Below are positions 2,209 through 37,965 of a stretch of DNA of 64,000 nt, piece after piece (positions within the stretch are counted from its first letter, which is position 1; every line of letters starts with the position of its first letter). Source of the stretch: Chloroflexota bacterium (GTDB taxonomy: Bacteria; Chloroflexota; Dormibacteria; Dormibacterales; Dormibacteraceae); NCBI GenBank assembly GCA_005881825.1, contig VBEO01000058.1:1-64000 (forward strand). Direction: 5' to 3'. Below the pieces are notes generated by a model. It had not been told where the DNA came from and searched no databases. It saw only the letters and a program-made list of their open reading frames with translations. A program made the position numbers and the translations under genes.

Positions 2209-3531
2209 GTGAGCCGGGGGGCGGTAGCCGATGTCGTGATCGTCGGCGCCGGCCTCGCCGGCATGACCGCGGCTCACGAGCTGCGCGACCGCGACCTGGT
2301 GGTCATCGAGAAGGAAGACCGCGTGGGTGGGCGCACACTCTCCGGCCGGCACGGCGAGTACTGGTACAACTCGGGCGCCCAGTTCGTGTGGGACAAGCGC
2401 ACCCTCGCACTCTGCCGCGAGCTGGGCCTCGACGTCATCGACGGCGATGGAGCACGGGCCGCGATCTTCGTGCGCGGGCGCCTGGTCGAAGCGGCCAATC
2501 CCTATGCCCTGCTCGCCAAGATGCCGCTATCGGCGCGCGAGAAGCTCGACTTCGGACTGACCATCCGGCGCCTGCGCCGGCTGGCCGACCGCATGCCGAG
2601 CCTCGACCGGCGCCGCCTCGATGGCCAGTCGCTGGCCGACCTGATGGGTTCGACCACCCCGTTCACCCGCCAGATCCTGGACAACGTGACCGAGAACGGT
2701 GCCGGCCTGGGCATCGACGAGGTCTCGGGCTGGATCGGGCTGGCCTACGCCATCCACCTGTTTGGCGGGGACGTGAACGACACCCTCAAGGCAGTACGCG
2801 GCGGCACCCAGGCGATCACCCAAACGGTGGCCGAGCGGCTCGATCCCGAGCGCCTGGTGCTGGGGGTGGCCGTGACCCAAGTCACGGTGGAGCCCGAGGG
2901 CGTGGCGGTCAGCTACCGCCGCAACGGCGAGGTCGAGACCTTGCAGGCGCGGCACTGCATCCTGGCGGCGCCTGCGCCGGCGGTGCTGGAGATGGTCCCT
3001 GGATTGCCCGCGGACAAGCGCGCGGCGCTGGAGCGCATGCAGCCCTACACCGAGGGCCTGAACGTGGCCTGGATGACCGATGAGTCTGGACCGATGCCCT
3101 GGGACCGGCTGCTGGCGGTGCCGGTGCTGGGAGCCAGCTTCGAGCTCTTCAGCAACAACGCCTACTTTGCGCGCCGCCGCGACGGCGAGCGGCGGCCGGG
3201 CGGCACCTTCGTGACTCTCTCCATCAGTGGCGAGAAGGCGCGCGGTTTCTCGGCGCTGAGCGACGAGGAGATCCGGCGGGCGCAGGTCGCCGATCTCAAG
3301 CGGATGTTCCCGAGCGCGGGCGAGGTGCTGGATCGTGCGCGCGTGCGCGTCGAGCGCTGGCGGGCGCTGCCCCGCTTCCGCAAGGGCTGGCTGGCAGACC
3401 AACAGGTAATCCGCGCGCCGTTCGGGCACCTGCATTTCTGCGGCGACTACACCGCACAGCCGGGCACGCCCGGCGCGGTCGGCAGCGGGTATCACGCGGC
3501 GCAGGCGGTGCGCGCGGCTCTGGAGGCATGA
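2209..3531 (+). CDS. Flavin-dependent amine oxidase (monoamine oxidase fold)
   Basis: This 440-residue FAD protein has the N-terminal dinucleotide motif VVIVGAGLAGMTAAHEL, then the second FAD motif VIEKEDRVGGRT and SGAQFVWD. The C-terminus carries the family FAD-binding end HFCGDYTAQPGTPGAVGSG. These define the amino-oxidase/protoporphyrinogen-oxidase superfamily (PF01593). Expected chemistry is oxidation of a C-N bond with H2O2 release or transfer to another acceptor; the substrate is unknown. The start is a GTG at 2209. The stop overlaps the following SDR start as ATGA, so the two are probably translationally coupled. It is the first of several flavin oxidases in this window. Confidence 0.85.
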   Translation: MSRGAVADVVIVGAGLAGMTAAHELRDRDLVVIEKEDRVGGRTLSGRHGEYWYNSGAQFVWDKRTLALCRELGLDVIDGDGARAAIFVRGRLVEAANPYALLAKMPLSAREKLDFGLTIRRLRRLADRMPSLDRRRLDGQSLADLMGSTTPFTRQILDNVTENGAGLGIDEVSGWIGLAYAIHLFGGDVNDTLKAVRGGTQAITQTVAERLDPERLVLGVAVTQVTVEPEGVAVSYRRNGEVETLQARHCILAAPAPAVLEMVPGLPADKRAALERMQPYTEGLNVAWMTDESGPMPWDRLLAVPVLGASFELFSNNAYFARRRDGERRPGGTFVTLSISGEKARGFSALSDEEIRRAQVADLKRMFPSAGEVLDRARVRVERWRALPRFRKGWLADQQVIRAPFGHLHFCGDYTAQPGTPGAVGSGYHAAQAVRAALEA

Positions 3532-4143
3532 GCATGGATCGAACTCTGGAGGGAAAGGTGGCGGTGATCACGGGCGCCAGCCGCGGGATCGGGGCGGCGG
3601 TGGCGGCCGAGCTGGCGGGCGCCGGAGCGCACGTGATGCTGGGAGCGCGCAGCGAGGATGATCTGCGCGAGGTGGCTTCCAGGCTGGGCGACGCCGCGGT
3701 CGCCGTCACCACCGATGCCACGCGGCTCGATCAGCCTCAACCTGCGGGCCGCCTGGTACCTGTCGAAGCTCTGCCATCCGCACATGAAGGCGCGGGGCGG
3801 CGGCGCCGTCGTGAACATGGCGTCGACCTCGGGCCTGCACCACGACATCGGCCTCGGCATCTACAGCATCAGCAAGGCCGCTTTGATCATGCTGACCACC
3901 GTCTGCGCAAAGGAGTGGGCGCGCGACGGCATCCGCGTCAATGCGCTGGCACCCGGCATCGTGCGCACAGAACTCTCGGTGCCGATGGTGTCCTGGTTGC
4001 AGGAGCATGGTGAAAAGCCGAACGCGCTCAACATGATCGGCGAGCCGGAGGACGTGGCCCGGCTGGTCCGCTACCTGGTCAGTGACGAAAGCCGCTACGT
4101 AACCGGGGACGTGATCCGCATCGACGGCGGAGAGCTGCTGTAG
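3528..4143 (+). pseudogene. Short-chain dehydrogenase/reductase broken by an internal deletion with frameshift
   Basis: The first 65-70 codons from ATG 3528 encode a normal SDR start (GKVAVITGASRGIGAAVAAE). Near 3725 the homologous reading moves to another frame, which continues SLNLRAAWYLSK, then the catalytic YSISKAA segment, VNALAPGIVRTEL and a typical C-terminus ending GGELL at 4143. The stretch that should join them, including the NNAG motif and about 50 residues, is absent. The two parts total about 205 codons against about 250 for the family. Neither frame alone encodes a functional enzyme. This is either a real pseudogene or an assembly deletion of about 150 bp. The gene lies between an amine oxidase and an acyl-CoA synthetase. 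Confidence 0.8.
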
Positions 4144-5699
4144 GCAGGGTCCTGGCCGCGCTGCGCGGCCGCTTTCGGTGGGAAGTTCCGGCACGCCTGA
4201 ATATCGGCGTCCTGTGCTCTGACGCGCAGCCGGCTCGGCGCCTGGCCCTGATCCATCTGTCAGACGGCGGCCGCCGGACGCTGACATTCGGCGAGCTGGC
4301 GCGGCAGTCCAACCGGATGGCCAACGTCTATGCCGACCTCGGCTTGCGGCCGGGCGATCGGGTGGCGGTGGTGCTGCCCCAGGGGCCGGAGACGGCCATC
4401 GCTCACGTCGGCGCCTACAAGGCCGGCTTGATCGCGATGCCGCTGGCCACCCGCTTCGGCGTCGACGCACTGAGGTTCCGGCTGTCGGACAGCGGCGCCC
4501 GGGTGGCGATCACCGACCGCGAGACCGCCACGCGCCTGGAATCGGCGTCCCTGGAGCGGGTTGTGCTGGTCGAGGAGCTGGATTCGCTGCTGGGGGCGGC
4601 CAGCGAACGCTTTCGGTCCGTGGACTCCAGCGCCGAAGACCCGGTCCTGCTGATCTACACCTCCGGCACCACGGGGCCGCCCAAGGGGGTGCTCCACGCC
4701 CACCGCGTTCTGATCGGGCAGGCTCCCGGCTTCCGCCTCGCGCACGAGCTGCTGCCGCAGCCCGGCGACCTGATGTGGACGCCGGCCGACTGGGCCTGGA
4801 TCGGCGGGTTGGTCAACACCCTGCTGCTGACCTGGGCCCACGGCGTGCCGATGGTCTCGGCGCCGCGCCGGACCTTCGATCCGGAATGGGCCCTCGACCT
4901 GATGGCGCGTGAAGGCGTGCGCAACGTGTTCATGCCCACCACGGCGCTGCGCATGCTCCGCGGGTTTCGCGTTCCCCGGGCGCTCCGCCTCCGCAGCCTG
5001 ATGTCCGGCGGCGAGGCGCAGGAGCTGGAACTGGTCGAAGCCACCCGCTCGGCCTTCGGGCTGCCGACCAACGAGTCGTACGGACAGACGGAGGCCGACT
5101 TCGTGATCGGCCACTGCGCGTCCCGCTGGCCGCCCCGGCCGGGCTCGATGGGCCTGCCCTACCCCGGGCACGAGGTCGCGCTGCAGGACGAAGAGGGAGG
5201 CTCAGTCGCAGACGGCGAGGTGGGCGAGGTCGTGGTCCGGGGCCCCGACCCGACCTTCCTGCTCGAATACTGGCGCCGGCCGGACGCGACGGCCGCCAAG
5301 TTCCGCGGCGCCTGGCTGCGCACCGGCGACCTGGCGCGGCGCGACCAGGATGGCTACTTCTGGTTCGAGAGCCGCGCCGACGACGTCATCAAGTCGGCGG
5401 GCTACCGGATCGGTCCCAGCGAGGTCGAGGAGTGCCTGCTCCGGCACCCGGCCGTGGCCGGGGCGGCCGTGATCGGGGTGCCGGACCCCGTCCGCGGCCA
5501 GGCCGTGAAGGCCTTTTTGATGCTGCGGCCGGGCTTTTCGCCCTCGCCGGGCTTGGAAGATTCGCTTCGCCAACTCGTCAAGTCCCGGTTGGCCGCCTAC
5601 CAGCAGCCGCGCCTGTTCGAGTTCCTGGACGAGCTGCCGCTGACCACGTCGGGCAAGGTCGACCGCGGCCGGCTCAGGGCTGTCGGTACACCGACCTGA
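4140..5699 (+). CDS. AMP-dependent acyl-CoA synthetase (medium-chain/ACSM-like)
   Basis: Core motifs of the ANL superfamily are present: the P-loop-like LIYTSGTTGPPKG, ESYGQTE, the adenylate-binding LRTGDLARRDQDGYF, and the C-terminal KSAGYRIGPSEVEE with catalytic Lys in TTSGKVDR. The product would activate a carboxylic acid to its CoA thioester. The first ATG in frame is 4317. Codons upstream to about 4140 encode a family-like N-terminus (FRWEVPARLNIGVL, then TLTFGELARQSNRMAN), so the true start lies before 4317. No ATG/GTG/TTG exists there. Candidates are GTA at 4140 in a GTAG overlap with the SDR stop (GGAG 7 bp upstream), GTC 4149 or CTG 4152. The 3' end overlaps the convergent DUF1989 gene by 26 bp. 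Confidence 0.85.
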   Translation, partial: VGRVLAALRGRFRWEVPARLNIGVLCSDAQPARRLALIHLSDGGRRTLTFGELARQSNRMANVYADLGLRPGDRVAVVLPQGPETAIAHVGAYKAGLIAMPLATRFGVDALRFRLSDSGARVAITDRETATRLESASLERVVLVEELDSLLGAASERFRSVDSSAEDPVLLIYTSGTTGPPKGVLHAHRVLIGQAPGFRLAHELLPQPGDLMWTPADWAWIGGLVNTLLLTWAHGVPMVSAPRRTFDPEWALDLMAREGVRNVFMPTTALRMLRGFRVPRALRLRSLMSGGEAQELELVEATRSAFGLPTNESYGQTEADFVIGHCASRWPPRPGSMGLPYPGHEVALQDEEGGSVADGEVGEVVVRGPDPTFLLEYWRRPDATAAKFRGAWLRTGDLARRDQDGYFWFESRADDVIKSAGYRIGPSEVEECLLRHPAVAGAAVIGVPDPVRGQAVKAFLMLRPGFSPSPGLEDSLRQLVKSRLAAYQQPRLFEFLDELPLTTSGKVDRGRLRAVGTPT

Positions 5700-7482: not shown

Positions 7483-7935
7483 ATGGACGCTCTCTATCCG
7501 TACGTCAAAACGCTGCACATTCTGTTCGCGATCATTGCGGTCGGATTCAACGCTTCTTACGCGGTGTGGCTCGTGCGCGGGCAACGCGATCCGGCCCACC
7601 TCGCGTTCGCGGTCAAGGGCGTGAAGTTCATGGACGACTACATCGCGAATCCGTGCTATTTGCTGCTGCTTTTGTCGGGGTTGGCGATGGCGTTCGTGGC
7701 CGGCCCTTGGGGTTTTCAGCGCTGGATCGTCGCCGCGTTGATCTTGTGGGTGATCTTGATGGGGTTGGGGTATCGCGTGTACACGCCGACCCTCAGCAAG
7801 CAGATCCGGACGCTGGCTGCAGAGGGGCCGGAATCGGCGGCCTATCAGGCGCTGGACAGGCGCGCAAACGTGGTCGGCGCGGCGCTGGTCTTGATCGTGC
7901 TGGTGATCCTGGTTTTGATGGTGTTCAAGCCCTGA
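7483..7935 (+). CDS. DUF2269-family integral membrane protein
   Basis: This 150-residue protein has four predicted transmembrane helices at about residues 8-28, 56-76, 80-100 and 128-148. The first contains KTLHILFAIIAVGFN, with a His placed as in DUF2269 and CopD-like membrane proteins. Between helices 3 and 4 is a charged cytoplasmic segment. The function is unknown. It lies 5 bp after the RidA stop and is probably in the same operon. Its TGA stop overlaps the likely CTG start of the next gene. Confidence 0.7.
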   Translation: MDALYPYVKTLHILFAIIAVGFNASYAVWLVRGQRDPAHLAFAVKGVKFMDDYIANPCYLLLLLSGLAMAFVAGPWGFQRWIVAALILWVILMGLGYRVYTPTLSKQIRTLAAEGPESAAYQALDRRANVVGAALVLIVLVILVLMVFKP

Positions 7936-8474
7936 CCCTCGAGCTCGAGTTCGAGCACCGCGGGGGACGCGGCACTGTGCGCGCCAGCCTGGAGGTCAAC
8001 CAGGACCCGGTGCGCTGGGGTTATCGAGAGGTGGATTTTGGTGAGCATCTGCTGGGGGTGGTCGGGTTTCCGGTTTGCCAAGCCAAGGTCGAGCATTCGG
8101 CGCACGGATACGCGCGGCTGCTCGGCTGGGTGCAGACCGTATGGACGGACGGCGTGGGCGAATTTGATCCCTGGGCCCCGCTGGACGGCCTGGATGTGCC
8201 GTTCTGCTGGATTGGGTTTTCGCCCGAACTGTTCGACACACCGTGGCGTGTGGATCGTTCGCGGGATCTGGTTTGGGAGGCGCACTCCTGGTTGTGCGGC
8301 CCGCCGGGATCGCTCATCAAACGCGAAGTCCGGATGCTTTGCGGATTTCGATGGGGCTACCGGCTGCGCTCTGGCGAGGTGGAAGTTTGGGGACCGGAAG
8401 CGCTGGAACGAGCAACGTGGGACCGCGATCTGCCAATCCTCCGAGCGGCCTGCCCGTCGTGGACATTCGCGTAA
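7932..8474 (+). CDS. Conserved hypothetical protein (about 180 aa)
   Basis: The frame downstream of the DUF2269 gene encodes a compact protein with many aromatic residues (YREVDFGEHLLGVVGFPVC, WTDGVGEFDPWAPLDGL, RMLCGFRWGYRL). I do not recognise a characterised family. The likely N-terminus TLELEFEHRGGRG begins at CTG 7932, which overlaps the upstream TGA as CTGA. The nearest canonical start in frame downstream is GTG 7977, which would remove 15 residues including this beta-strand-like opening. No signal peptide or membrane helix is visible. The protein is cysteine-containing but lacks a clear metal motif. Confidence 0.55.
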   Translation: MTLELEFEHRGGRGTVRASLEVNQDPVRWGYREVDFGEHLLGVVGFPVCQAKVEHSAHGYARLLGWVQTVWTDGVGEFDPWAPLDGLDVPFCWIGFSPELFDTPWRVDRSRDLVWEAHSWLCGPPGSLIKREVRMLCGFRWGYRLRSGEVEVWGPEALERATWDRDLPILRAACPSWTFA

Positions 8475-10897: not shown

Positions 10898-11867
10898 GCG
10901 CAACGTGGTCGAGGCCATCAACAACGCGCTCACCGAGGAGATGGAGCGCGATCCCCGCGTCATGCTCCTGGGCCTCGACGTGGGCCGGCTGGGCGGCGTC
11001 TTCCGCACCACCAGCGGCCTGATCGAGAAGTACGGCGCGTCGCGCGTCGTCGACACCCCGCTGGCCGAGGCCAGCATCATCGGCGCCTCGCTGGGCCTGG
11101 CCGTCTCGGGGATGGTCCCGGTGGCCGAGATCCAGTTCCTGGGGTTCACCGCCCAGGCCTTCCACCAGATCGGTCCCCAGCTGGGCAAGTACCGCCATCG
11201 CTCGCGTGGCCGCTACCACGCCCAGGTCACGATCCGCGCCCCCTTCGGGGGTGGCATCCGCAGCCCCGAGTTCCACTCCGACGCCGTAGAAGCCCAGTTC
11301 GTGCAATCGCCCGGCATCAAGGTCGTTATGCCGTCCAACCCGTACGACGCCAAGGGCATGCTCCTAGAGGCGATCCGCGACCCGGACCCGGTGCTCTTCT
11401 GCGAGCCCGACCGCCTCTACCGCCTCTACCGCATGGAGGTGCCGGACGGTGACTACACGGTGCCCTTCGGCAAGGCCGTGGTGGCGCGCGAGGGCAAGGA
11501 CGTGACGCTGGTGGCCTGGTCGGCGGCGGTCGAGCTCTGCCAGCGGGCCGCTGCCAAACTCGCTGAGGAAGACATCGAGGCCTCAATCGTCGACCTGCGC
11601 ACCCTGGTCCCCCTGGACGTCGAAACGCTGGTCAACGCCGTGGCCGCCACCGGCCGCTGCGTGATAGTCCATGAAGCGCCCCTGTCGGCCGGTTTCGGCG
11701 CCGAGGTGGCTGCGACCCTGGCGGAGGAGGCCTTTTACGACCTCGATGCGCCGATCGCGCGCGTGGCCTCCTGGGACATCCCATTCCCTCCCGCGTCCAT
11801 GGAGCACTGGTACCTGCCCTCGGTCGACCGCGTGGTGGAGGCCGCCAAGCGGACGGCCGCGGCGTAG
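10884..11867 (+). CDS. 2-oxo acid dehydrogenase E1 component, beta subunit
   Basis: This 327-residue transketolase-like subunit has RVVDTPLAEASIIGASLGLA, EIQFLGFTAQAF, RAPFGGGIRSPEFHSD and the C-terminal half LRTLVPLDVETL, which are standard for E1 beta subunits (PDH/BCKDH). It forms an alpha2beta2 E1 with the upstream product and performs decarboxylation and reductive acylation of lipoate. Two ATGs (10884, 10890) lie within the overlap with the alpha gene. The missing E2/E3 must be encoded elsewhere. Its TAG stop overlaps the next gene in the -1 frame. Confidence 0.9.
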   Translation: MAMPERNVVEAINNALTEEMERDPRVMLLGLDVGRLGGVFRTTSGLIEKYGASRVVDTPLAEASIIGASLGLAVSGMVPVAEIQFLGFTAQAFHQIGPQLGKYRHRSRGRYHAQVTIRAPFGGGIRSPEFHSDAVEAQFVQSPGIKVVMPSNPYDAKGMLLEAIRDPDPVLFCEPDRLYRLYRMEVPDGDYTVPFGKAVVAREGKDVTLVAWSAAVELCQRAAAKLAEEDIEASIVDLRTLVPLDVETLVNAVAATGRCVIVHEAPLSAGFGAEVAATLAEEAFYDLDAPIARVASWDIPFPPASMEHWYLPSVDRVVEAAKRTAAA

Positions 11868-12562
11868 CGCTCGTCACCGGCGGGTCGCGCGGCATCGGCG
11901 CGGCCTTCGTGGTGGAGGCGGCTCGGCGCGGCTACCAGGTCGTCTTCAGCTACCGCGAACGGAAGGCGGAGGCCGAGAAGATCTCGGCCCAGACAGGCGC
12001 GGTCGCCGTCCAGGCGGACCTGACGCGCTTCGAAGACATCGAGGCCCTGGCCGCCGCCGCCAAGAAGGCCGGGCCGGTCTCGCTGCTGGTGAACAACGCC
12101 GGCCTGGGCGAGGAGTTCACCCTGCCGGCGATGGGCCGGGAGGACTGGGAGCGGGTGCTGGCGATCAACCTCACCGCGCCTACGTTTCTCATCAAGGAGC
12201 TGCGCGACGAGCTGGTCGCCAACCGCGGCGCCATCCTCAACGTGAGCAGCGACGGTGGGGTGGCGGGGTCACTGCATGGCGCGCCCTACGGCGCCACCAA
12301 GGCTGGGCTGATCGGCCTGACCAAGACCATCGCCCGCGAGCTGGCGCCCCACGTGCGCTGCAACGCCATCGCTCCAGGCCCGGTCGCCACCGAGATGTGG
12401 CACTCCATGGACCCCGCGGTCCAGGAGCACGTCACACAGCGCGAGGTGCTCCTGAAGCGGGTGGCTCAGCCCGAGGACATCGCGCGCGCCGGCCTCGACA
12501 TCGCCAGCTGGCCGGACGCCACCGGGATCGTGGTCGTACTGGACGGCGGCCGGATCATGTAG
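11864..12562 (+). CDS. Short-chain dehydrogenase/reductase
   Basis: A full SDR is encoded: ALVTGGSRGIGAAFVVEAA (cofactor loop), LLVNNAGLGEEF, a catalytic Ser in LNVSSDGGV, YGATKAG with Tyr/Lys, and CNAIAPGPVATEM. It has 232 codons if read from GTA 11864, the normal family length. The first canonical start in this frame is GTG 11909, which would delete the Gly-rich cofactor motif and cannot be right. The homologous sequence begins exactly at the GTAG overlap with the E1 beta stop. The substrate is unknown; position suggests a hydroxy/keto metabolite related to the E1 pathway. Confidence 0.85.
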   Translation, partial: VALVTGGSRGIGAAFVVEAARRGYQVVFSYRERKAEAEKISAQTGAVAVQADLTRFEDIEALAAAAKKAGPVSLLVNNAGLGEEFTLPAMGREDWERVLAINLTAPTFLIKELRDELVANRGAILNVSSDGGVAGSLHGAPYGATKAGLIGLTKTIARELAPHVRCNAIAPGPVATEMWHSMDPAVQEHVTQREVLLKRVAQPEDIARAGLDIASWPDATGIVVVLDGGRIM

Positions 12563-17032: not shown

Positions 17033-18087
17033 TCTACCACGGCCAGGACAACATCCTGAACCTGGTGGCCGCCCAGGGATTGGAGCTGACGACCGAGTTC
17101 AGCCTGGGCACCGATACCCCGGACATCATCTTCCACGGCCACCGGCTGTCGAAGGAGGCGAGCGCCGAGCTTGCGCAGGAGCTGCGGGACGGGGTCAAAC
17201 GCACCCCACCCGGCTTCTACGAGACGGTGGCCCAGTGGTCGCGCCGCGCCCGGCTTTCCGAAGACGCGGGCAAGCTGCTGGAGGCTATCGCCCAGGGCAC
17301 CCCGGCCGCGCCGCTGCGGCTGGCCGACTCGCAGGAGCTGAACGTCGAGCTCTCCTGGGGCAAGGGCTACCGCAAGATCAAGGGCGGCAACGACCGCCTG
17401 CCCCAGGCCCTGGCGCGCGGCCTCGACGTCCGCCTGAACCAGCTGGTGCGGGTGATCGGCCACGGGTCCGGCGGCGTCACCGTGGAAACCGAACGCGAGA
17501 CCTTCCACGGCGACCGGGCGCTGGTCACGGTGCCGGGGCCACTGGTGCAGGAGCTGGGCTTCGACCCGGTGCTGCCGGCGGAAAAGATCCAGGCCCTACT
17601 CCAGCTGCGCTACGGCAACGGCACCCGGATCGTGTCGCAGTTCAAGGAGCGCGACCTGGTGCGGGAGGCGATCGGCCTCGGCTGCTTCACCGACCGCATG
17701 CCCGGCTACATCATGGAGCAGACCATGCAGCAGCCAGGCGAGCACGTGGTGATCAGCGGCCTGGCCGCCGGCGACGTGGAGCCCGCGCTGATGACGGAGG
17801 AGCAGATCCTGGACGCTTTCGACGAGACCATCAGCGCGGCCGTCGGCAGGCAGGTGCGCCGGGCTTACGGGTACGTCAAGAACTGGACCCAGGACCCGCT
17901 CACACGATCGGTGGTGCGCGCGCCCCTGGGCGACCAGCGGGAGACCGTGCTGCCGGAGATCAGGCGGCCGGTCGGCGACCGCCTCTTCTTCGCCGGCGAG
18001 TACACCGATGACCGGATCGGACCGGGCGGGATGGAGGGCGCCATCAAGTCCGCCTACCGCGTCAGCCGGGAGCTGCTCGATGGATAG
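16939..18087 (+). pseudogene. Flavin amine oxidase lacking its N-terminal FAD-binding loop
   Basis: From GTG 16939 the frame reads FEARDRVGGRVF, the second FAD motif of amine oxidases, and ends with RLFFAGEYTDDRIGPGGMEG, the normal C-terminus. The first motif GxGxxG and its strand, always about 25-30 residues before this point, is missing. In this frame the upstream bases read only GHQVRT before entering the SolA-like gene. The 382-codon remnant is about 35-40 residues short. A deletion joining the end of the SolA-like gene to codon about 30 of this gene explains both. As it stands the product should not bind FAD normally. It overlaps the next gene by 8 bp. Confidence 0.75.
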
Positions 18088-19192
18088 CGCGGACGAGCTT
18101 CTCCTGATCCCGGGACCGGTCTCGATCGACGACGAGATCCTGGAGGTGCTGGGGCGGCCGGTCATGGCTCACTACGGCGACGCCTGGACCGAGCTTTATC
18201 ACCGCACCGTCGCCAACATGCAGACGGTCTTCCGGACGCGCAACGAGGTTCACCTCGTGTTCGGTCCCGGCCAGGCGGCCATCGAGATGGCGATCGCCAG
18301 CGTGCTCGCGCCCGGCGACAAGCTGATCGCACCCAGCAACGGCCTCTTCGGCGACCGGCTGCACATGGTGGCCAATGCGCACGGCATCGAGGCGGTGCGG
18401 ATCACGCCGCCGCCGCGGGAGGCGGTTTCGGTCGAGTCGGTGCGGGAAGCGCTCGACCAGCATCCGGACGCCCGAGCGGTGGCGATAGTCCACCACGAGA
18501 CCTCGATGGGCGTCATGAACCCGGTGCGCGAGATCGCGGAGCTGGCGCGTGAGCGGGGCGCGCTGACCATCGTGGATGCCGTCTCCTCGGCAGGCGGCAC
18601 CGACCTCGACGTCGACGGCTGGGAGATCGATCTGTGCGTGACCACCGGCAACAAGTGCCTGGCCGGCCCGATCGGAGTCGCCCCGATTGCGATCGGACCG
18701 CGGGCGATCGCCGCCAACGAGGACGGGCGGCCGAAGACGGCGGGCTGGTACCTGGATTTCGCGACCTGGCGGCAGCACGCCGAGATGTGGAAGACCTGGC
18801 ACCCGCACCCGACCACCATGCCCACGAACGTGATCCGGGCGCTCGACGTCTCGGTGCGCCGGGTGCTCGAGGTCGGGCTGGACGAGCACATCCGGCGCCA
18901 GCGCGCGGCCCGAGACACCGTGCGCGAGGGGCTGCGCGAGATGGGCTTCGAGATGATGGTGCCCGACGAGGTCGCCTCGCCGGTGACCACCGCAGCGCTC
19001 GGTCTGCGCGGCATGGACGTTCACGATTACATGCGCTGGTTGCTCGATGAGCACGACCTCCGCATCGGCGGCGGTCTGGGCCCCTGGGCCGACAGCGCGT
19101 TCCGGGTGGGCCACATGGGCCGCGCCAAGGAGCCGGAGGTGGTCGACCGGTACCTGGCGCTCACGCAGGAGTACATCCAGTCGCGGACGTAG
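18080..19192 (+). CDS. Class V aminotransferase (alanine/serine-glyoxylate type)
   Basis: This 370-residue PLP enzyme begins LLLIPGPVSIDDEILEVLGRP, the standard alanine-glyoxylate/serine-glyoxylate aminotransferase opening. It has VHHETSMGVMNPVREIAELA, VDAVSSAGGTDLDVD with the PLP-ring Asp, and the Schiff-base Lys in TTGNKCLAGPIG. The end RIGGGLGPWADSAFRVGHMG is also conserved. It would transfer an amino group to glyoxylate or pyruvate. ATG 18080 overlaps the amine oxidase stop. Its TAG stop overlaps the next FAD gene in the -1 frame. Confidence 0.85.
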   Translation: MDSADELLLIPGPVSIDDEILEVLGRPVMAHYGDAWTELYHRTVANMQTVFRTRNEVHLVFGPGQAAIEMAIASVLAPGDKLIAPSNGLFGDRLHMVANAHGIEAVRITPPPREAVSVESVREALDQHPDARAVAIVHHETSMGVMNPVREIAELARERGALTIVDAVSSAGGTDLDVDGWEIDLCVTTGNKCLAGPIGVAPIAIGPRAIAANEDGRPKTAGWYLDFATWRQHAEMWKTWHPHPTTMPTNVIRALDVSVRRVLEVGLDEHIRRQRAARDTVREGLREMGFEMMVPDEVASPVTTAALGLRGMDVHDYMRWLLDEHDLRIGGGLGPWADSAFRVGHMGRAKEPEVVDRYLALTQEYIQSRT

Positions 19193-20364
19193 TCGTCGTC
19201 GGGGCCGGGATCGTCGGGGTCAGCACCGGCTTCAACCTGGCCCGCCTGGGCGCCGGGAAGATCGTCGTGCTGGAGCGGGAAGGCGTGGCCGCCCAGGCCT
19301 CGCGCCTCTCGGCCGGGCTGGTGCGCACCCACTACTCGAACGCGCCCGAGGCGCGGCTGGCGCTGGCCGGTCTGAAATGGTTCGAGAACTGGGCCGAGCT
19401 GGTCGGCGGCGAGGTCCCGTTCTGGCGCACCGGCCTGCTGAACCCGGTCGCCCGCGAGGACCACGACAAGCTGCGGCGCAACGTGGCCATGCTGCAGGCG
19501 GTCGGCGTGGAGACCGAGCTGATCGGCCCCGAGGAGATGGTCGAGCTGGAGCCGGCCATCCACGCCAAAGAGGACGACCTGGCGGCCTATGAGCCGCGCA
19601 GCGGGTATGCCGACCCGGGCGCGACCACACACGCCGTGGCTGGGGCGGCGCGGCGGCTGGGCGTGGAGATAGCCGAGGGCGTAGAGGTGACCCGGATCCT
19701 GGTCGAGGGCGACCGGGTCACCGGGGTGGAGACCCCGGCCCGACGGGTCGCGGCGCCTGCCGTGGTGCTCGCCAACGGCGCCTGGTCGGTGCCCCTGGCG
19801 CGTGCGGTGGGCGTGGAGATCCCGATCGAAAGCGTCGGCGTGCGCCTCGCCTTCGTGCGCCGGCCGCCCGACCTGCGCCCGGGCTGGGGCGGGCATGCGG
19901 TGGTGCTCGACCGCGCCCACGGCGCCTACACCCGGCCCGAGGGCGCGGACCATAGCCTGCTCGGGCTGTCAGGAGCGCGGGTCCCTCTGACGGCGCCCGA
20001 CCGCTACGACAGCGAGGCGCGACCGGACGCCGAGTTCGAGCAGCTGGCGCGTTCCCAGCTCGCGTTGCGCTTCCCGAGCTTCGCCGAGGCGCCGGTGGTG
20101 GCGCACCGAAGCGGGCCCATCGACATCACGCCCGACCTCTGCGCGATCATCGATCGCGTCCAGCCGGAGGGGCTGTACCTGGCGGTGGGCATGAGCGGCT
20201 CGGGCTTCAAGAAGGGCCCGGCGATCGGGCAGTGCGTGGCCGAGATGGTCTTGCACGGGGAGTCGCGGACGGTGCCCATCCCCGAGTTCCGGCTCAGCCG
20301 GTTCGCCGAGAATGACCTGATTCGGGGCGACGTGTACTCGGGTCCCTTCAACCTCGTGCACTAA
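19180..20364 (+). CDS. DAO-family FAD oxidoreductase (sarcosine oxidase beta-like)
   Basis: Homology begins ADVVVVGAGIVGVSTGFNLARLG (FAD motif), then VLEREGVAAQASRLSAGLVRTHYSN, the SoxB-like segment, and ends AVGMSGSGFKKGPAIGQCVAEM. Product length is 394 if read from GTC 19180. The first canonical start is GTG 19267, which would cut off the FAD motif. GTC 19180 is preceded by AGGAG at 19167-19171 with 8-bp spacing and gives the family-like start 'MADVVVVGAG'. GTA 19189, in a GTAG overlap with the previous stop, is the other option. The likely substrate is an amino acid or N-methyl amino acid. Confidence 0.85.
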   Translation, partial: VADVVVVGAGIVGVSTGFNLARLGAGKIVVLEREGVAAQASRLSAGLVRTHYSNAPEARLALAGLKWFENWAELVGGEVPFWRTGLLNPVAREDHDKLRRNVAMLQAVGVETELIGPEEMVELEPAIHAKEDDLAAYEPRSGYADPGATTHAVAGAARRLGVEIAEGVEVTRILVEGDRVTGVETPARRVAAPAVVLANGAWSVPLARAVGVEIPIESVGVRLAFVRRPPDLRPGWGGHAVVLDRAHGAYTRPEGADHSLLGLSGARVPLTAPDRYDSEARPDAEFEQLARSQLALRFPSFAEAPVVAHRSGPIDITPDLCAIIDRVQPEGLYLAVGMSGSGFKKGPAIGQCVAEMVLHGESRTVPIPEFRLSRFAENDLIRGDVYSGPFNLVH

Positions 20365-37222: not shown

Positions 37223-37965
37223 AGGAGCGAGCGCACCAGGCCACCGTCGATGGTGATGGTCTGGCCGGTGATGTAGGCGGCCTGGCTGGAGCAGAGGAAG
37301 GCGCAGAGCGCGCCCACCTCGGCCGGCTCGGCCAGCCGGCCCACCGGCACCGACTCGGCCGCGCGCGCCAGCTGCTCGGCGTTCATGCCGTTGCGCACGG
37401 CGTCCGTGAGCACCCAGCCGGGCGCGATGTTGTTGACGGTGACGCCCTGGCGCGCGACCTCGGCCGCCACCGTCTTGGCCATGCCGGTCACCGCCGGGCG
37501 GTAGGTGTTGGAGAAGAGCCGGCCGTCCAGCGACCAGCGCGCCGACATCGAGGTGATGTTGACCACCCGGCCCTGGCCCGACTCGGCGAGCGCAGGCAGC
37601 GCCGCCCGGATCAGGGTCGCCGCACTCAGCAGCGTGAGGTGGTAGGCACGGTCCCAGGTCTCCCGCTCGGCGCTCTGGAAGTCCCCCGACGGCGGATCGC
37701 CGGAGTTGGTGACCAGGATGTCGAGGCCGCCCAGGCGCCGGATGGCGGCCGCCACCAGCTGCTCGGCCTGCTCGGGGTCGGCGAGGTCGGCGGCCTGGAA
37801 GCCGGCGGCCCCGATACGGGCGGCGGAGACCGCCAGCACGCCCTCGTCGCGGGCGGCCAGGAAGACCTGCGCGCCCTCGGCGGCGAGCACCAGCGCGCAG
37901 CCGAAGCCGATGCCCCGGCTGGAGGCCGTGACCAGCGCGCGGCGGCCAGTCAGCTCGAGATCCGT
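37219..37965 (-). CDS. Short-chain dehydrogenase/reductase
   Basis: The frame encodes DLELTGRRALVTASSRGIG (cofactor loop TASSRGIG), GALVLAAEGA-type helix, DILVTNSGDPPSGDF, NITSMSARWSL, NTYRPAVTGMAKTVA (Tyr and Lys spaced as Y-x6-K, atypical) and VTVNNIAPGWVLTDA. It is a 248-codon protein if begun at ACG 37965, which has AAGGA 8 bp upstream and gives the family-like MDLELTGRRALVT. CTG 37953 is the alternative. The first canonical start is 37890, which deletes the cofactor loop. It follows the M24 peptidase gene by 4 bp. 3-Oxoacyl-ACP reductase-like or sugar dehydrogenase roles are possible. Confidence 0.8.
   Translation of the reverse strand, partial: TDLELTGRRALVTASSRGIGFGCALVLAAEGAQVFLAARDEGVLAVSAARIGAAGFQAADLADPEQAEQLVAAAIRRLGGLDILVTNSGDPPSGDFQSAERETWDRAYHLTLLSAATLIRAALPALAESGQGRVVNITSMSARWSLDGRLFSNTYRPAVTGMAKTVAAEVARQGVTVNNIAPGWVLTDAVRNGMNAEQLARAAESVPVGRLAEPAEVGALCAFLCSSQAAYITGQTITIDGGLVRSLL

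Follow-up and report, generated by a model that had tools for sequence, protein, structure and literature searches.

A FAD-dependent oxidoreductase gene lacking a canonical start codon, and candidate near-cognate initiation at stop codons in a Dormibacteraeota family

How is translation of a gene initiated when its reading frame offers no ATG, GTG or TTG ahead of the conserved domain? This question is raised by a putative FAD-dependent oxidoreductase gene in the window studied here, a stretch of 64,000 nt (contig VBEO01000058.1, positions 1 to 64,000) from a Chloroflexota bacterium of the Dormibacteraceae (GCA_005881825.1). Within the source MAG, which comprises 3.09 Mb in 158 contigs and is 92% complete, the window corresponds to contig 42. 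The initial annotation had proposed a start at GTC or GTA, and a relaxed use of start codons at the stop codons of preceding genes as a trait of the lineage. Table 1 lists the features discussed.

Table 1. Genes, candidate start codons and related signals at junctions lacking a canonical start (window coordinates unless a locus is given).
Feature	Position	Strand	Remark
Class-V aminotransferase ORF	18008..19192	+	PF00266; ends with TAG 19190-19192
AGGAG, Shine-Dalgarno-like	19167..19171	+	8 nt before GTC 19180; doubles as Gln-Glu codons of the aminotransferase
FAD-dependent oxidoreductase, DAO superfamily	19180..20364	+	PF01266 and orthologue in G013; no canonical start before the domain
GTC, second candidate start (M-ADVVVVGAG)	19180..19182	+	coding onset by codon statistics
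GTA in GTAG with the upstream TAG, favoured candidate start (M-VVVGAGIVG)	19189..19191	+	ACGTAG setting as in the DUF72 gene of the same MAG
GTG, first canonical in-frame start of the FAD gene	19267..19269	+	would cut off the FAD-binding loop
Acyl-CoA synthetase, GTA in GTAG overlap	4140..5699	+	first canonical start 4317 falls within the AMP-binding domain
Unassigned ORF with CTG in CTGA overlap, weak case	7932..8474	+	open frame
Short-chain dehydrogenase SDR1, GTA in GTAG overlap	11864..12562	+	downstream of a transketolase-like gene; canonical starts in the orthologues, which are a few codons longer
Short-chain dehydrogenase SDR2, ACG at 37965 just after TAA	37219..37965	-	ten orthologues have ATG/GTG/TTG at exactly this place
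DUF72 gene of the source MAG, GTA in ACGTAG	G000:C70:14256; L189:14256-14960		start setting same as in the FAD gene

The oxidoreductase gene and its junction with the aminotransferase

The frame of the oxidoreductase gene is open from TGA 19048 to 20364, and its earliest in-frame ATG, GTG or TTG is the GTG at 19267. The Pfam model DAO (PF01266) matches over its full length (profile positions 1-353 of 353, E = 2.8e-61) from GAC 19186 onwards, including the N-terminal dinucleotide-binding loop, so that no canonical codon lies between the TGA and the start of the domain. Since the match begins with profile position 1, a start at 19267 would delete the ADVVVVGAGIVG loop, as the initial annotation had argued. 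Codon statistics place the coding onset at 19180. Among the named DAO equivalogs (sarcosine oxidase, N-methyltryptophan oxidase, ThiO), none scores above its curated NCBIfam cut-off; the best, soxB, reaches 116.7 bits, where the cut-off stands at 529.

The preceding aminotransferase, whose best NCBIfam relative is pyridoxamine-pyruvate transaminase with a score far under the cut-off, lies on the same strand, and the oxidoreductase gene sits in its -1 frame. The AGGAG ahead of GTC and the GTAG shared by GTA and the aminotransferase stop (19189-19192) are both present in the sequence as first described, and GTC lies 10 nt before the stop. This is the placement of a termination-reinitiation pair.

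Of 110 genomes in the class, a single one has a close orthologue. This orthologue is 65-67% identical and belongs to Candidatus Dormibacteraeota S106_Bin_1 (G013), a member of the same family whose operon is the most similar to that of the window, with the same order of amine-oxidase-like gene, aminotransferase and FAD gene. The orthologue starts with a GTG in a GTGA overlap and has the N-terminus M-RNS-ADVVVV, which indicates that the gene normally has a canonical start and has none here. Judged by N-terminal length in this single close orthologue, its GTG pairs with GTA 19171, close to but not at 19180 or 19189. An orthologue beginning further downstream, which had been named as a possible refutation of an early start, was looked for and not found; the G013 protein begins slightly upstream. 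Between the motifs GAGTAC and GCGGAC, the G013 junction is 42 nt longer than that of the window (counted on both sequences). Either the lineage of the window has reshaped its junction, or the contig has lost sequence.

Missing starts in the window and in the source MAG

The four further sites that the initial annotation had named as similar cases (4140, 7932, 11864 and 37965) are also present in the sequence, with the codons GTA, CTG, GTA and ACG, respectively. The one at 7932 lacks support beyond its open frame, as it has no Pfam match and one distant partial homologue. Relatives of the acyl-CoA synthetase carry longer N-termini, and the peptidase upstream of SDR2 is intact. It is correct that four of the five sites lie in the -1 frame of the preceding gene; this is unremarkable, because 233 of the 422 closely spaced same-strand pairs in the genome are -1 as well, and a special preference for this frame was therefore rejected. 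Just upstream of the acyl-CoA synthetase gene, at 3528-4143, an SDR gene is split between two frames, one matching PF00106 1-63 and the other PF13561 101-234, and lacks about 37 residues. It is a case of deletion plus frameshift, natural or made by the assembly.

We scanned 1.09 Mb of the MAG by codon usage for genes in which coding clearly extends upstream of the first canonical start. Under strict settings, 34 of 764 genes (4.5%) were found, against 3 of 596 in pooled controls (Fisher p = 2e-6), these being 1 of 208 in the relative G006, 1 of 180 in G013 and 1 of 208 on a closed Azospirillum plasmid of similar GC. A laxer scan yielded 42 raw candidates. At least seven candidates represent an internal deletion plus frameshift, and several others look antisense. 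In 18 candidates, about 2.4% of the genes, a conserved domain or N-terminus precedes the first canonical start. Compared with the two relatives alone, the excess is modest (18/764 versus about 4/388). Missing canonical starts are real and in excess in this MAG.

The 18 homology-supported cases were classified by hand after the scan. A coupled junction is found in 15 of them, compared with 42% of other genes; the enrichment is confined to this subset and is absent from the full set of 42. As a class, missing-start genes show no enrichment of Shine-Dalgarno motifs at their near-cognate codons. Single cases are convincing, such as the CTG of a methylthioadenosine-phosphorylase-like gene (MTAP; L156:6106, minus strand), located 7 nt after AGGAGG. 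This case and that of a response regulator (L107) are mostly confined to the source MAG, and most relatives have ATG, GTG or TTG nearby. GTAG as a special tetranucleotide is only suggestive, with 4 of 12 GTAG junctions lacking a nearby canonical start. The scan also picked up prfB (L075:14194) with its programmed frameshift site, a natural positive control.

In the DUF72 gene, SDR1, SDR2 and the MTAP gene, changes before the first canonical codon fall mainly at third positions, which argues that translation covers these stretches in the frame claimed. Comparisons for the FAD gene (codons 2-29 against the orthologue, 28 codons in all) and for the acyl-CoA synthetase, each with few sequences, point in the same direction.

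Sequence errors were considered as a source of lost starts. In-frame coding-stop-coding events other than ordinary tandem genes are very few, and with nonsense codons this rare, base substitutions fail to explain the eighteen lost starts. At L157:12402, a transporter-like frame with coding on either side is broken by a single TAG, a possible nonsense mutation or error. Deletion-plus-frameshift breaks affect Nfo (L103:5122), methylmalonyl-CoA mutase (L104:2162), EF-G (L185:2457), PEP carboxylase (L090:11814), zwf (L176:1998), thiolase (L072:777) and TauE (L081:2920). Such internal breaks, often of about 100 nt, suggest gap-joining errors in the assembly. A homology-based deletion rate against G013 and G006 amounts to one event in 108 comparisons, with few shared genes.

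The DUF72 gene across the family

The DUF72 gene was compared between the source MAG and 15 other genomes of the family (L256-L270), which represent several genera. It mostly follows an RlmN-like gene, named by eye from its C-terminus. In 8 of the 16 genomes, no ATG, GTG or TTG occurs from the in-frame stop to codon 25-30, and the near-cognate codons mostly overlap the upstream stop: GTA in the source MAG, ATA in G013 and G022, ATC or CTG in G003, CTG in G016 and G004, and ACG in G002 and G015. ATA makes up about 0.1% of codons in the source MAG. In four genomes (G007, G010, G018, G020), an ATG, GTG or TTG stands no more than a few codons from where the gene is expected to begin. In G006, G008, G014 (ATA) and G017 (ATC), the only canonical codons lie either 17 or more codons ahead of this point, where they overlie the preceding gene, or deeper in the reading frame.

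Relative to the upstream stop, most genomes have the gene in the -1 frame, G003 has it in-frame, and G002 and G015 show another relation, while the canonical start stays missing. Since no fewer than half of the related genomes examined, all of them independent assemblies, share this peculiarity, sequencing error alone is an unlikely cause. The pattern across genera fits what a relaxed start at stop codons would predict, and this junction is probably the most suitable one on which to test reinitiation at near-cognate codons.

Reinitiation at the preceding stop and its alternatives

From these comparisons, we consider it probable, at roughly 60%, that the FAD gene uses a near-cognate start at the preceding stop and is one case of a wider tolerance in the family. 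The oxidoreductase gene would then be the second of two genes coupled in translation: a ribosome that completes the aminotransferase at TAG 19190 would begin anew in the -1 frame, from a non-canonical codon on or beside this stop, and the protein is presumably made. For the codon itself, GTA 19189 is the most likely candidate and carries about half of our confidence; GTC 19180 follows with about a third, and GTA 19171 comes last. GTA and GTC are poorer start codons than CTG or ATA. The family as a whole would tolerate CTG, ATA, ATC, ACG and GTA as starts, mostly where a preceding gene ends, and the terminating ribosome would accept such codons often enough for them to persist, which would be a new step. 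A stronger version, to which we give slightly less than even odds, holds that NTA over TAG or TAA (ATAG, ATAA, GTAG) as well as CTG, ATC and ACG are selected reinitiation codons in this family, the DUF72 gene being the example across genera, so that restart at a stop can proceed without NTG. A lost IF3 and an unusual initiator tRNA were both rejected as causes. The two components look ordinary, with an intact IF3 and a tRNA-fMet that carries the C1-A72 mismatch as well as three G-C pairs.

The main rival for the FAD gene is the loss of a short stretch from the contig. Here, an assembly deletion or recent decay would have removed tens of bases, including the end of the aminotransferase and a GTG or ATG, and the GTC or GTA start would be an artefact. 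Since the only close orthologue has both a GTG and 42 additional nucleotides, and since the MAG contains other small deletions (at least seven deletion-plus-frameshift genes in 1.09 Mb, EF-G and zwf among them, and the broken SDR at 3528-4143), this particular junction may not be natural. Against a deletion, we estimate that about 2 lost starts would be expected in 764 genes at the observed deletion rate, whereas 18 were found. Upstream genes at coupled missing-start junctions end between -32 and +20 nt from the coding onset, while a frame broken by an internal deletion mostly runs on for tens to hundreds of nucleotides; this argument carries little weight for the FAD gene taken singly, because a stop within 20 nt in the frame concerned is expected by chance in 36% of cases. 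The aminotransferase moreover terminates near the conserved end of its family, and the DUF72 pattern repeats in independent assemblies. On balance, a deletion appears unlikely, and it deserves the most attention among the alternatives.

It is less probable still that no special start is involved, with a shortened protein made from GTG 19267 or the gene decaying as a pseudogene. That GTG is indeed the earliest canonical start, but its use would sacrifice the GxGxxG loop at the beginning of the DAO domain, and the frame is otherwise intact with the third-position bias noted above over its 28 compared codons. The least credible alternative is frameshifting or readthrough near the aminotransferase stop, which would give a fusion protein and make a second start unneeded: several cases do show a tight -1 overlap, but inspection by eye revealed no slippery sequence common to the four -1 sites, and the DUF72 frame relation varies between genomes while the canonical start stays missing, which counts against a programmed event with a constant frame relation and signal (for the FAD gene, two junctions were compared and the signal was judged by eye).

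Taken beyond this gene, near-cognate initiation at stop codons looks like a lineage trait. The excess in the strict scan, the coupling of homology-supported cases and the recurrence at the DUF72 gene speak for this part of the initial proposal. The proposal as a whole is partly supported, with the reading of the FAD junction and the choice of its codon tentative and the site at 7932 left unsupported. For the FAD gene itself, near-cognate initiation is likely but unproven.

Termination-reinitiation at overlapping stop and start codons is established, the known overlaps being NTGA and TGATG with NTG starts (PMC6728339, PMC12548453). The junctions described here resemble this coupling in that the downstream gene begins at or a few nucleotides from the upstream stop, in another frame and co-directed. 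They differ in their overlapping codons, which include GTA and ATA (NTAG/NTAA) and CTG, and in that some starts are ATC or ACG. In E. coli, CUG initiates weakly, with 0.86% of the AUG output, and it accounts for 0.024% of bacterial start codons (PMC11497404). CUG can start translation, whereas homology-supported missing starts here amount to about 2.4% of genes. A literature search found no paper treating Dormibacter together with the start codon. Gene finders limited to ATG, GTG and TTG would shorten a few per cent of the proteins in such genomes or place their starts wrongly. If the proposed reading is true, a natural lineage exists in which termination-coupled initiation needs no canonical start codon, and reinitiation at AUA, GUA, CUG and ACG could readily be tested at the DUF72 junction.

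Non-canonical starts are familiar from other settings. Baudet et al. in 2010 reportedly found unexpected non-canonical initiation codons in Deinococcus deserti by proteomics; there, the starts of a bacterium were shown by peptides, whereas ours come from comparative sequence analysis and lie mostly at the stop of a preceding gene. The odd start codon of infC serves autoregulation by IF3. It shares with our cases a near-cognate start conserved within a lineage, and differs in that the genes described here are unrelated enzymes at coupled junctions. Within the class, infC appears to start with ACG after a strong Shine-Dalgarno sequence in family f3 and with ATC in others (L190, L197, L199). In G006, a sigma-factor-like gene, named by eye, has an apparent ATC start after AAGGAG (C7 near 113389, in L115, minus strand).
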